From: Bradyrhizobium sp. CCGB01
GTDB lineage: Bacteria > Pseudomonadota > Alphaproteobacteria > Rhizobiales > Xanthobacteraceae
Direction: 5' to 3'
Length of the DNA: 64,000 nucleotides
NCBI RefSeq assembly: GCF_024199795.1
Contig: NZ_JANADK010000001.1
Location: 2,418,001-2,482,000 of the forward strand
The notes under the pieces: generated by a model
Databases searched by the model: none
What the model saw: the letters and a program-made list of their open reading frames with translations, nothing else
What the model was told of the DNA's origin: nothing
Part shown: positions 16,681 to 20,597 of the stretch, piece by piece
Position numbering within the stretch: position 1 is the stretch's first letter
Layout: each line of letters begins with the position of its first letter
Made by a program: the position numbers and the translations under genes

Positions 16681-17124
16681 ATGAACGCGAGCGCCAACAA
16701 GAAACTGATGCAGGATATTTTCGCCGCCGCCGCCAGCCCCGACCCGGCGGTGCGCGACCGCGCCCTGTTCACCGCAAGCCTTGCCGACGACGCCAGATGG
16801 GTCGTGACCGGCCAGTATTCCTGGTCGCGCACCTTCACCGGCAAGGGGTCGATCCTCAACGATCTGCACGGCTATGTCCGCACCCGTCTGCGCGACCGCA
16901 CGCGCACGGTCGCCCACCGCTTCATTGCCGACGGCGACGTCGTCGTGGTGGAAGCCAAGGGCGACAATGTCACGCCCGAAGGCGTGCGCTACGACAACGA
17001 CTACTGCCTCGTGTTTCAGTTCGAGGACGGCAAGATCAAGGAGATCCGCGAGTACTGCGACTCGGTGCTGACCGAGAAGGCGCTCGGTCTGTTTCCGCAA
17101 ACGCCGGTGAGGGCTGCGGGCTGA
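16681..17124 (+). CDS. SnoaL-like / NTF2-fold protein
   Basis: From the ATG at 16681 (CGGAG upstream) the product is 147 residues with a cone-shaped NTF2-like fold. An N-terminal helix (KKLMQDIFAAAAS) is followed by WVVTGQYSWSRTFTGKGSIL, a central VVVEAKGDNV strand, and the conserved end YDNDYCLVFQFEDGKIKEIREYCDS. Family members include ring-opening and steroid or polyketide-modifying isomerases as well as proteins of unknown role. The divergent LysR regulator next door probably controls it. The specific reaction cannot be assigned. The open frame continues upstream to 16621 but lacks family character there. Confidence 0.82.
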   Translation: MNASANKKLMQDIFAAAASPDPAVRDRALFTASLADDARWVVTGQYSWSRTFTGKGSILNDLHGYVRTRLRDRTRTVAHRFIADGDVVVVEAKGDNVTPEGVRYDNDYCLVFQFEDGKIKEIREYCDSVLTEKALGLFPQTPVRAAG

Positions 17125-17174
17125 GCGGGTTGAGCCGCGTCGCATGCCCGGGCCGAGCCGGTTCATCACGGCCG

Positions 17175-17315
17175 ATGATGGTCGCGCGGGCCTGGCGGGC
17201 GCTGGTGGAGATGGTCCGTATCAGGCGCGAGCGGTCCCAGGCCCGGTATCAGCTCGCCGCCATGACCGAACGGGAGCTTCAGGATTGTGGGATGACCCGA
17301 GCGGAGATCGCGTAA
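17175..17315 (+). CDS. DUF1127 small protein
   Basis: This 46-residue basic peptide carries the DUF1127 pattern: a helix with RAWRALVEMVRIRRER, then the end LAAMTERELQDCGMTRAEIA. Short DUF1127 proteins are arginine-rich; some alphaproteobacterial members bind RNA and affect phosphate or carbon metabolism. The function here is unknown. It lies 50 bases after the SnoaL-like gene and may share its transcript. The ATG at 17175 has a weak ribosome binding site. Confidence 0.8.
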   Translation: MMVARAWRALVEMVRIRRERSQARYQLAAMTERELQDCGMTRAEIA

Positions 17316-17388
17316 GAGCTGCATAAGCCTCGCCGACGCAAATAGAGGGGGAGGGACACGGGCCGTCGCCTTGCCCGGCTTTTGGAGT

Positions 17389-17419
17389 GCCGGCGGAACC
17401 TTTGGGTTCCGCCGGCGTT
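17389..17419 (+). promoter_or_regulatory. EcfG-type general stress promoter within a 12-bp stem-loop, upstream of bphO
   Basis: GGAAC (17395-17399), a 16-base spacer and CGTT (17416-17419) match the alphaproteobacterial EcfG consensus. The predicted transcription start near 17426 lies about 47 bases before the bphO ATG. The same bases form a perfect 12-bp stem (17389-17400 with 17405-17416, loop TTTG). The match could therefore also be a by-product of a hairpin, or the hairpin may end the DUF1127 transcript. Confidence 0.55.
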
Positions 17420-17472
17420 CCTTCGCTTCCGGGGCAATCGCGCCTTCGGCATCGCGCGCGTTTGGGAATTTC

Positions 17473-18057
17473 ATGCTGGCTGGGGCTTCGGACGTTTCGA
17501 CACAAGTGGGCCGCAGCTTCCCCGGACTCCGCGAACGACTGAGAGATGCGACTGCGGCTGCGCACCGGGAGCTCGATGCGCAGCTTTCATCATTCGATCT
17601 CACCGTATTTTCCGGCTACCGCCGCTTTTTGCAGGCCAGTGCCGGCGCGCTGCTGCCGCTCGAAGCCACGCTTGTCGCTGCCGGCGTCGCCACGATGTTT
17701 CCGGACTGGCCGGAGCGGGCGCGCAGCGCAGCGATCGCGGCGGATCTCGAACGGCTCGGCAGCGCCGCGGAACCCACCGTGTCCGTGCCGCCGCTGACGC
17801 GCAGCGGCGTGCTGGGCACCATGTACGTGCTGGAGGGCTCCCGGCTCGGGGCCAAATTCCTGCTGAAGGCGGTTGCGGATGCCGCCGACCCCCGTATCGG
17901 CGAGGCTACCGGCTATCTCAGCCACGGCGCCGGCAAACGGCTCTGGCAGAGTTTCCTGTCGAAGCTTCAAAGCGAAGAGGCCTGCGACGAGGACGAGGTG
18001 ATCGAGGCGGCGCACATCGCCTTCGCCGCGTTCGAGCAGGCGGCGGACCGCGCATGA
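17473..18057 (+). CDS. bphO: Biliverdin-producing heme oxygenase
   Basis: This 194-residue heme oxygenase should open heme to biliverdin, the chromophore of the phytochrome encoded next. The proximal heme ligand is the histidine in RLRDATAAAHRELDAQLSS. The distal helix region reads GVLGTMYVLEGSRLGAKFL, with the glycine-rich signature of the BphO/HemO type. It is coupled to bphP by an ATGA overlap (stop 18055-18057, bphP ATG at 18054). The frame is open upstream to 17371, across the EcfG-like promoter hairpin. I chose the ATG at 17473, which gives the family-typical N-terminus. Confidence 0.92.
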   Translation: MLAGASDVSTQVGRSFPGLRERLRDATAAAHRELDAQLSSFDLTVFSGYRRFLQASAGALLPLEATLVAAGVATMFPDWPERARSAAIAADLERLGSAAEPTVSVPPLTRSGVLGTMYVLEGSRLGAKFLLKAVADAADPRIGEATGYLSHGAGKRLWQSFLSKLQSEEACDEDEVIEAAHIAFAAFEQAADRA

Positions 18058-20597
18058 ACGAGGCCGTCAATCTCACCAATTGCGATCGCGAGCCGATCCA
18101 CATTCCCGGCAGCGTGCAGCCGTTCGGCTTCCTGCTCACGCTGTTGTCGGATTTCACGATCTGCATGGCGTCGGACAATGCCGCCAGCTTTCTCGGCACT
18201 GACGTCGCCGACCTGCTCCAGCGGCCGCTGTCGAGCGTCATCGCCGAAGCCGCCGTCGAGACCATCCGCAGCCGCGTCGATCATCTGAGTGGTCCGGACG
18301 CGACCGAACGCCTCTTCGGGGTCGAGCTCCAGGCGGGCAAGCCGCTTTGCGACGTCGCGATCCATTTTTCCGGCGTCTATCTGGTCGTGGAGGCCGAGCC
18401 AAGCGTCATCGAGCCGGGCGTCAATTCCGGCGAGCTGGTGCGCCTGATGCTGGAGCGGATCCGCAAGACACGCGGCATGACCGAGCTCGCGCGCGAGGCG
18501 GCGCGGCAGCTCAAGGTGCTGACCGGCTTCGACCGCGTCATGGTCTATCAGTTTCACCCGGACGGATCGGGCGAGGTGATCGCGGAGGCTGCGGAAGCGG
18601 GGCTCGAACGGTTTCTCGGCCTGCATTACCCGGCCTCCGACATCCCCAGACAGGCCCGGGTTCTCTATCAGCGCAACTGGCTGCGCATCATAGCGGACAT
18701 CAATGCGCAGCCAGCCGCGCTGGTGTCGACGGCGACCCACAATGCGGGGCTGCTCGATCTTTCGATGAGCGTGCTGCGCTCGGTGTCGCCGATCCACATC
18801 GAATATCTGCGCAACATGGGCGTCGGCGCCTCGATGTCGGTGTCGGTCCTGCGCGACGGCAAGCTGTGGGGCCTGTTCGCCTGCCATCATTACTCGCCGC
18901 GCCACATCTCTTTCGAGAAGCGCACGGCCTCCGAACTGTTCGGGCAGATGTTCTCCTGGATCGTGGAAGGGCGCGAGCGCGAGGGCGACGTCGCCTACGA
19001 GATGCGCGCTCACCACGTGCAGGAGCGGTTGATCGAGACCGCGGCCTCGCACGAGCACAGCCAGCGCGCCATCGTCGACTTCCTCGGCGACTATCGCGGG
19101 ATGATCGACTGCGACGGCGTGGCGGTCTGGTCCGACAACAAGATCGCGCTTCAGGGCCAGACGCCGACCGAGGACGAGGTGAAGGAGCTCGTTGCCTTCA
19201 TCAACCGGACCTCGCCGGGACGGATTTTCGCCAGCGCCGAGATCGCCAGGGTGTATGCCGCCGGCCAGTCCTTCCGCGACCGCGCGGCCGGTTTCCTCGC
19301 CATCCCGATCTCGCGCGCCCCGCGCGATTGTCTGATCTTCTTCCGGCGCGAGGTCGTGCGTTCGGTGAACTGGGCCGGTGCGCCCGAAAAGGTCTACGAC
19401 GAAGGCCCGAACGGTCCGCGCCTGACGCCGCGCAAGAGCTTTGAGCTCTGGCAGGAAACGGTGGCGGGCCAGTCGAAACCGTGGTCCTCCGCCGACATCC
19501 GCATCGCGGAGAGCCTGCGGGTGACGCTGCTCGAGGTGATCCTGCAACTGTCCGATCTCGCCGCGCGCGAGCGGCGCGGCGCGCAGGAGCGGCAGGAGCT
19601 GATGATCGCCGAGCTCAATCACCGCGTCCGCAACATCCTGAGCCTCGTCCGCGCTCTGGTGGCGCAGAGCAAGGACACAGCGGCCAGCGTCGAGGAATTC
19701 GCCGGCGTGCTCGGCGGCCGCATCCAGGCCCTGGCGCGGGCCCACGACCAGATCACCAATCTGAACTGGGCGCCCGTCGCACTGCGCTCGCTGCTCGAAT
19801 CCGAGGCCGGCGCCTATCTGGGCGCGCGCGCAGACCGGGTCAGGATGGGCGGCCCCGACGTGGCGCTCGATCCCAAGGCGTTCGCAACGCTGGCCCTCGT
19901 CGTGCACGAGATGATGACCAATTCCGCCAAATACGGCGCGCTCGCCGATTCCACCGGCAGCGTCGAGGTCGCGTGGCGCCTCGATCCGTCGTCGAGCCTC
20001 GTCATCGACTGGAAGGAGAGCGGCGGTCCCCCGGTGCAGCCGCCGTCGCGGCGCGGCTTCGGAACCACGATCATCGAGCGCTCCGTCCCGTTCGACCTCA
20101 AGGGCGAGGCCGAAATCCGCTTCGACCTGCTGGGGGTGCAAGCGACGTTCATCATTCCCCCCAACTTCGTCGAACTCGTGCCATCAATCGCAGGAGCCGC
20201 CATGCGCGTCGAAGAGCAGCAATCGTCCCGTTCGCGGATTTCCGACACGGCCCTGATCGTCGAGGACAATCTGATCATCGCGATGGCCGCGGAGGTCATC
20301 CTGCTCGACCTCGGTGCCCGCCACGTCGATACTGCCGCGACCGTCGACCAGGCGCTGCGTGCGATCGAGCGCACGCGCCCGGGCTTTGCCCTGCTCGACC
20401 TCAATCTCGGCAACGAGAGCAGCATCAAGGTGGCGCAGAAGCTGATGGAGATCGGCGTGCCCTTCGTGTTCGCGACCGGCTATGGCGAGCGCGCGCCGAT
20501 CCCGGCGGAGCTGGCCGCCGCGCCGGTGATCCAGAAGCCCTACACACTGGAAGTGGTCGAGAACGCGCTCGGCAAATTGACGCAGGCGGGCGACTGA
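18054..20597 (+). CDS. bphP: Bacteriophytochrome HWE-type histidine kinase with C-terminal receiver domain
   Basis: This 847-residue red/far-red photoreceptor has the layout PAS-GAF-PHY-HWE kinase-receiver. Cys10 in LTNCDREPIHIPG is at the biliverdin-linking position. The GAF domain has PASDIPRQARVLY (D196) and the YLRNMGVGASMSVSV block, followed by WGLFACHHYSPRH. The PHY tongue keeps the PRxSF motif (PRKSF, 459-463). The kinase has ELNHRVRNILSLV with phospho-acceptor H523, an N-box VHEMMTNSAKYGAL and WKESGG, which are HWE-family hallmarks. The receiver keeps D782 and K828. It is translationally coupled to bphO. HWE kinases commonly feed the general stress response, which suits the EcfG-like promoter upstream. 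Confidence 0.95.
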   Translation: MNEAVNLTNCDREPIHIPGSVQPFGFLLTLLSDFTICMASDNAASFLGTDVADLLQRPLSSVIAEAAVETIRSRVDHLSGPDATERLFGVELQAGKPLCDVAIHFSGVYLVVEAEPSVIEPGVNSGELVRLMLERIRKTRGMTELAREAARQLKVLTGFDRVMVYQFHPDGSGEVIAEAAEAGLERFLGLHYPASDIPRQARVLYQRNWLRIIADINAQPAALVSTATHNAGLLDLSMSVLRSVSPIHIEYLRNMGVGASMSVSVLRDGKLWGLFACHHYSPRHISFEKRTASELFGQMFSWIVEGREREGDVAYEMRAHHVQERLIETAASHEHSQRAIVDFLGDYRGMIDCDGVAVWSDNKIALQGQTPTEDEVKELVAFINRTSPGRIFASAEIARVYAAGQSFRDRAAGFLAIPISRAPRDCLIFFRREVVRSVNWAGAPEKVYDEGPNGPRLTPRKSFELWQETVAGQSKPWSSADIRIAESLRVTLLEVILQLSDLAARERRGAQERQELMIAELNHRVRNILSLVRALVAQSKDTAASVEEFAGVLGGRIQALARAHDQITNLNWAPVALRSLLESEAGAYLGARADRVRMGGPDVALDPKAFATLALVVHEMMTNSAKYGALADSTGSVEVAWRLDPSSSLVIDWKESGGPPVQPPSRRGFGTTIIERSVPFDLKGEAEIRFDLLGVQATFIIPPNFVELVPSIAGAAMRVEEQQSSRSRISDTALIVEDNLIIAMAAEVILLDLGARHVDTAATVDQALRAIERTRPGFALLDLNLGNESSIKVAQKLMEIGVPFVFATGYGERAPIPAELAAAPVIQKPYTLEVVENALGKLTQAGD

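Follow-up and report, generated by a model that had tools for sequence, protein, structure and literature searches.

A conserved EcfG-type promoter very probably drives a bacteriophytochrome operon of Bradyrhizobium

Can a red/far-red light sensor be produced by the general stress response and also act back on it? This question is raised by the bphO-bphP locus of Bradyrhizobium sp. CCGB01, found in a window of 64,000 nucleotides (the whole stretch of DNA that was analysed). A sequence-only reading had proposed that red/far-red sensing is an output of the stress response, through an EcfG promoter before bphO, as well as an input to it. On the forward strand, a SnoaL-like gene, a DUF1127 gene and an intergenic stretch are followed by bphO, bphP and a chemoreceptor gene (Table 1). 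The coupling of bphO through ATGA to a bacteriophytochrome with an HWE kinase, noticed from the letters alone, is borne out by the coordinates and the Pfam domains, the bphP start overlapping the bphO stop in this ATGA. The genome, searched as a single contig of 9.3 Mb, holds one PHY-domain protein and ten HWE kinases. Among named records, bphP has its nearest relatives in Bradyrhizobium, with an identity of up to 94%.

Table 1. Features of the bphO-bphP locus, in positions of the window
Feature	Position	Strand	Basis or remark
DUF1127 gene, short, upstream of the promoter stretch	17178-17315	+	
Inverted repeat spanning the promoter, including 12 perfect pairs	17384..17421	+	not conserved
EcfG-type promoter, -35 element GGAAC	17395..17399	+	invariant in 32/32 distinct orthologous upstream regions
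EcfG-type promoter, -10 element CGTT, spacer of 16 nt	17416..17419	+	invariant in 32/32; spacer 16 or 17
Small hairpin (CCGGGGC...) in the predicted 5' leader, between promoter and bphO	17429..17449	+	sequence fairly well conserved across the genus
bphO, heme oxygenase, 194 aa; biliverdin chromophore synthesis assigned by family	17473..18057	+	Pfam Heme_oxygenase
bphP, bacteriophytochrome, 847 aa	18054..20597	+	Pfam PAS_2-GAF-PHY-HWE_HK-Response_reg
Histidine kinase domain of HWE type, residues 520-602; contains HRVRN (HRxxN)	19611..19859	+	Pfam, E 4.1e-22
C-terminal receiver, residues 734-835, related to SdrG-/PhyR-type receivers	20253..20558	+	
PFVFATGY = PFxFATG[G/Y], SdrG-type (FAT GUY) receiver motif	20460..20483	+	sequence

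The exact GGAAC-N16-CGTT that had been claimed upstream of bphO is indeed present, at 17395-17419. The distance of about 47 bases given with it was measured from a guessed start near 17426; from the end of CGTT to the bphO ATG there are 53 nt. The same sequence is printed as the EcfG motif of R. etli (PMC3892343) and of Sphingopyxis granuli (PMC7083833), both sources being available in part, and a partly available source gives the motif of Methylobacterium general stress promoters as GAAC-N16,17-C/GGTT. A lone match of this kind proves little, because GGAAC-N16/17-CGTT occurs 200 times in the genome against 185 for the reversed pattern; the genome-wide count was thus discarded as uninformative promoter evidence. 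In the window, GGAAC-N15-18-CGTT is matched three times, with 1.74 expected, and the single match, taken alone, is not above chance. A consensus scan of 17100-17600 found no sigma-70 site and no terminator-like site.

The weight of the case is carried by conservation in the genus. The sample comprised 80 named loci with bphP relatives, together with a bphO search of 117 Bradyrhizobium genomes, 35 of which gave some match and 30 of these matches were taken as loci. The 40 loci that share the same bphO beginning have 31 distinct upstream sequences, and the exact motif is present in every one of them, 76-80 nt before the bphO ATG, with a spacer of 16 in 18 regions and of 17 in 13. By chance, 0.0028 matches are expected per 250-bp region (Markov shuffles), and the conservation of the motif is far above this level. 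The addition of one locus with a synonymous change near the bphO start (L006) brings the count to 32 of 32 distinct regions. In anchored profiles of these, the nine bases of GGAAC and CGTT never vary. Besides these nine, only two positions are identical in all 32, a C in the spacer (left-anchored profile) and a T nine bases past CGTT; the remaining positions around the promoter vary. Retention of the two elements in all 32 close orthologs, while spacer and flanks change, is the behaviour of an EcfG-type promoter.

The same association is seen when the loci are counted in other ways. The genus genome search yields the motif at 29 of its 30 loci, the divergent ortholog L108 reading TGTT. Exact matches number 13 across 13 of the named loci (10.7-12.5 kb each, 322,030 strand-bases in total), and every one is at bphO. 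At a bphP identity of 75% or more, 30 of 31 loci carry the motif (not deduplicated), and it is retained where bphO identity has fallen to about 50% (L012, L013, L014, L016, L018 and L109). At L015, with no bphO match, it stands 155 nt upstream of bphP.

Beyond the genus, 248 genomes of the family were searched. Full-length bphP relatives are listed in many genera, and 126 upstream regions, mostly of 1.6 kb, were fetched. The putative promoter motif turns up at HWE phytochromes in further genera of the family: 27 of the 65 regions upstream of full-length (HWE) relatives contain it exactly (26 different sequences), against 0.69 expected from shuffles, two on the antisense strand and two for the reversed pattern. 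Phytochromes that match in the light-sensing part only have it in 3 of 61 regions (expected 0.85; antisense 1; reversed 0), and the two groups differ with Fisher p = 7e-7, uncorrected for kinship. At least one motif site occurs in 8 of 16 genera, by our own tally from the tables of relatives. The three motif-bearing phytochromes of the non-HWE group have it at -716 (L217), -734 (L219) and -182 (L246) from the phytochrome start; the L217 and L219 sites are near-identical and come from two genomes of one genus.

Retention in the family is partial, the exact motif being missing from 38 of the 65 regions within the stretch examined. Three loci without it (L147, L151 and L156) do have bphO just upstream. 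In the 40 regions L142-L181, it is found in 21, and relaxing the -10 to NGTT adds a single one, L166. Further out, 1.2 kb upstream of 60 less similar named loci, mostly of other groups, only L034 and L056 have the motif (antisense 2, reversed 0, expected 0.46), that of L056 being placed before bphO about as in Bradyrhizobium. There is no clear enrichment in these less similar named loci, and the promoter claim is therefore limited to the family.

An EcfG promoter also needs its cascade in the host. In this genome, the genes for NepR, a PhyR-family regulator and a sigma factor adjoin one another; the sigma factor is named EcfG by its position beside NepR, and its NCBI family is PRK12540. The exact motif was not found at this phyR-nepR-ecfG locus. 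A GGAAC-N16-CGTA does occur there, 65 nt before phyR (L111:1279-1303, minus strand), and might be a self-regulating promoter with a one-base variant of the -10; matches as loose as this one are, in number, within chance at that locus. With the exact motif in 32 distinct orthologous regions and the cascade encoded by the host, EcfG is very probably the sigma factor that transcribes bphO-bphP. The output half of the sequence-only reading thus has strong comparative support, from -35 and -10 elements that stay invariant while the stem around them varies.

The input half depends on what BphP is built from. Its PAS_2-GAF-PHY module identifies it as a bacteriophytochrome, and the best solved relative of this light-sensing part is 6g1y (residues 5-498 only), listed as a bacteriophytochrome protein and presumably Agp2, which likens BphP to the Agp2-type phytochromes of Agrobacterium. 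For the receiver, the best solved relatives are 2lpm (a two-component response regulator), which we take to be Sma0114, 5ieb (SdrG) and 3n0r (a response regulator), presumably PhyR; 4qic, listed as PhyR, ranks lower. Among NCBI families, a PhyR-family model tops the scores for the receiver, below its cut-off. The HRxxN kinase motif and the PFxFATG[G/Y] motif of FAT GUY receivers are described in the available part of PMC5898713. BphP has both: its HWE/HisKA2-type kinase keeps HRxxN intact, as in stress-response (Pak-type) kinases, and its receiver combines the FAT GUY motif with kinship to SdrG in sequence. BphP is the only one of the genome's ten HWE kinases with the exact upstream motif and PFxFATG. 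The other nine show no exact motif up to 1.5 kb upstream of the frame and no in-frame PFxFATG receiver; one of them has GGAAC-N15-GGTT at -361.

Taken together, these features make a feedback circuit the best explanation, and one that we hold to be quite likely. EcfG would act at 17395-17419 to transcribe bphO-bphP, so that a cell in which the general stress response is on would make both the heme oxygenase and a phytochrome of HWE type for red/far-red light. The kinase of BphP, with its built-in SdrG/PhyR-type receiver, would most likely swap phosphate with the PhyR network, and the response would then be adjusted by light. Comparison of the upstream regions supports the predicted promoter and shows that HWE phytochromes tend to retain it; the phosphate exchange, of either sign, we infer from the HWE kinase, its HRxxN and the SdrG/PhyR-like receiver, and it is in these that the proposed stress input has its footing. 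A phyR or ecfG beside bphP was rejected after a search of 110 loci: the phyR matches listed (E <1e-6) coincide with BphP's own receiver, and the sole ecfG match is 29% identical (L079). Elsewhere in the genome, at G000:C1:254204-254527 (L133), an open frame of 159 codons contains a receiver with 50% identity to BphP's own, which makes it a candidate SdrG-type regulator.

EcfG could also transcribe the operon while BphP signals to a c-di-GMP enzyme, to motility or to some other regulator instead of PhyR, since the promoter evidence is independent of how BphP acts. In Erythrobacter, a diguanylate cyclase is reportedly switched on by a phytochrome with kinase and receiver domains (PMC12172448, available in part), and a chemoreceptor gene lies downstream of bphP. 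The HRxxN of the HWE kinase and the closeness of the receiver to SdrG- and PhyR-type ones speak against such a purely outward role, which we regard as possible and rather doubtful.

Feedback through the PhyR network, the preferred reading, may have either of two signs: BphP may activate the stress response as a kinase, or act as a sink of the kind known from Caulobacter. There, LovK-LovR is the nearest precedent, a photosensory kinase and a receiver under the stress sigma factor that act back on the response; according to the available part of PMC5964349, this SigT-controlled pair lowers the stress response by draining phosphate from the cascade. By analogy, stress would make BphP, its kinase and receiver would drain cascade phosphate, and light would set the strength. 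The fusion of kinase and receiver in BphP, behind the same kind of promoter, fits this sign, which we regard as possible but less likely than not, as sequence does not tell which way the phosphate flows. The two systems differ in that LovK is a blue-light LOV sensor with a separate receiver, whereas BphP is a predicted red/far-red sensor with a fused one, its feedback being proposed.

It could also be argued that the bphO promoter is used by a different GGAAC-reading ECF sigma factor. Eleven further relatives of the sigma factor are present in the genome, with 23-39% identity, and one of them might read a similar promoter. This we consider improbable, as GGAAC and CGTT set 16 apart are the published EcfG pair (in the sources available in part).

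Lastly, there is the hairpin. The perfect 12-bp stem that had been described over the promoter is real, with pairs 17389-17400/17405-17416, and sits within 17-nt arms that are 88% complementary (fold z = -6.2). It had raised the worry that the promoter is a coincidence of the hairpin, and an alignment in related genomes with the -35 and -10 kept and the stem lost had been named as the pattern in favour of the promoter. That pattern is what the orthologs display. A stem was counted if it had Watson-Crick pairs, a loop of 3-8 and a 5' arm spanning all five GGAAC bases; 18 of the 32 orthologs have no perfect stem of this kind and keep the promoter, which removes the worry. Since GGAAC and CGTT are present in all 32, the promoter is conserved and the hairpin is not. 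As a conserved element, the hairpin was therefore ruled out, and it appears to be a side feature of some strains. That a conserved hairpin, be it a terminator of the DUF1127 gene or an RNA element, gave rise to the motif as a side effect is very improbable and already contradicted by the aligned sequences, despite the strong fold in the window and perfect stems of 5-14 pairs over the -35 in 14 of 32 orthologs, given the 18 promoters that do without one and the lack of a terminator-like site in the consensus scan.

The second, smaller hairpin, in the predicted leader, was tried as a regulatory RNA and rejected, as its covariation is weak: one of its seven pairs has a compensatory change among 13 sequences. 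A search of known RNA families returned a single match, far below the threshold of that family.

How does this locus relate to known systems? EcfG promoters of Alphaproteobacteria (the sigma factor is also called SigT, RpoE2 or RpoE4) have the same GGAAC-N16-CGTT; the probable target here is a phytochrome operon. A literature search, with most subscription papers outside it, found no phytochrome placed under EcfG. The B. japonicum regulon was reportedly the subject of a paper by Gourion in 2009. USDA110 is stated, in the available part of PMC3899966, to be without a bacteriophytochrome, and therefore its regulon could not reveal a phytochrome target.

The same source describes BRADO2007 and BRADO2008 of Bradyrhizobium ORS278 as consecutive genes for a heme oxygenase and a bacteriophytochrome, like bphO-bphP. 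In the text available, the BRADO2008 phytochrome is also found in a non-photosynthetic strain, its mutant is photosynthetically unchanged and its function is reported as unknown, and no link to the stress response is mentioned there (PMC3899966). The two are probably the same operon, because L018, whose record is named B. aeschynomenes, has a bphP 80% identical and the motif. The conserved stress-sigma promoter would thus place this probable BRADO2008-type operon in the general stress regulon. It would widen the known control of the stress response by light in Alphaproteobacteria from blue, as with the LOV kinases, to red/far-red, and, if true, it would give a role to a widespread Bradyrhizobium phytochrome that has so far been without one.

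As to what light might announce, a review available in part (PMC12627116) holds that in Pseudomonas syringae light is an advance cue for water loss, largely via a bacteriophytochrome, and in Bradyrhizobium trehalose controlled by EcfG counters osmotic stress (PMC8092242, also available in part). On these two grounds, light as a drying-anticipation cue for the Bradyrhizobium stress response is a sensible guess, no more.

A minor observation concerns the DUF1127 gene on the plus strand, whose TAA stop at 17313-17315 is followed by ten more in-frame codons before the next stop (17178-17345). In the 32-row alignment, read by eye, that position is TAC in 20 rows and another sense codon in 5, with 6 unalignable; a stop codon there is seen in the window only.
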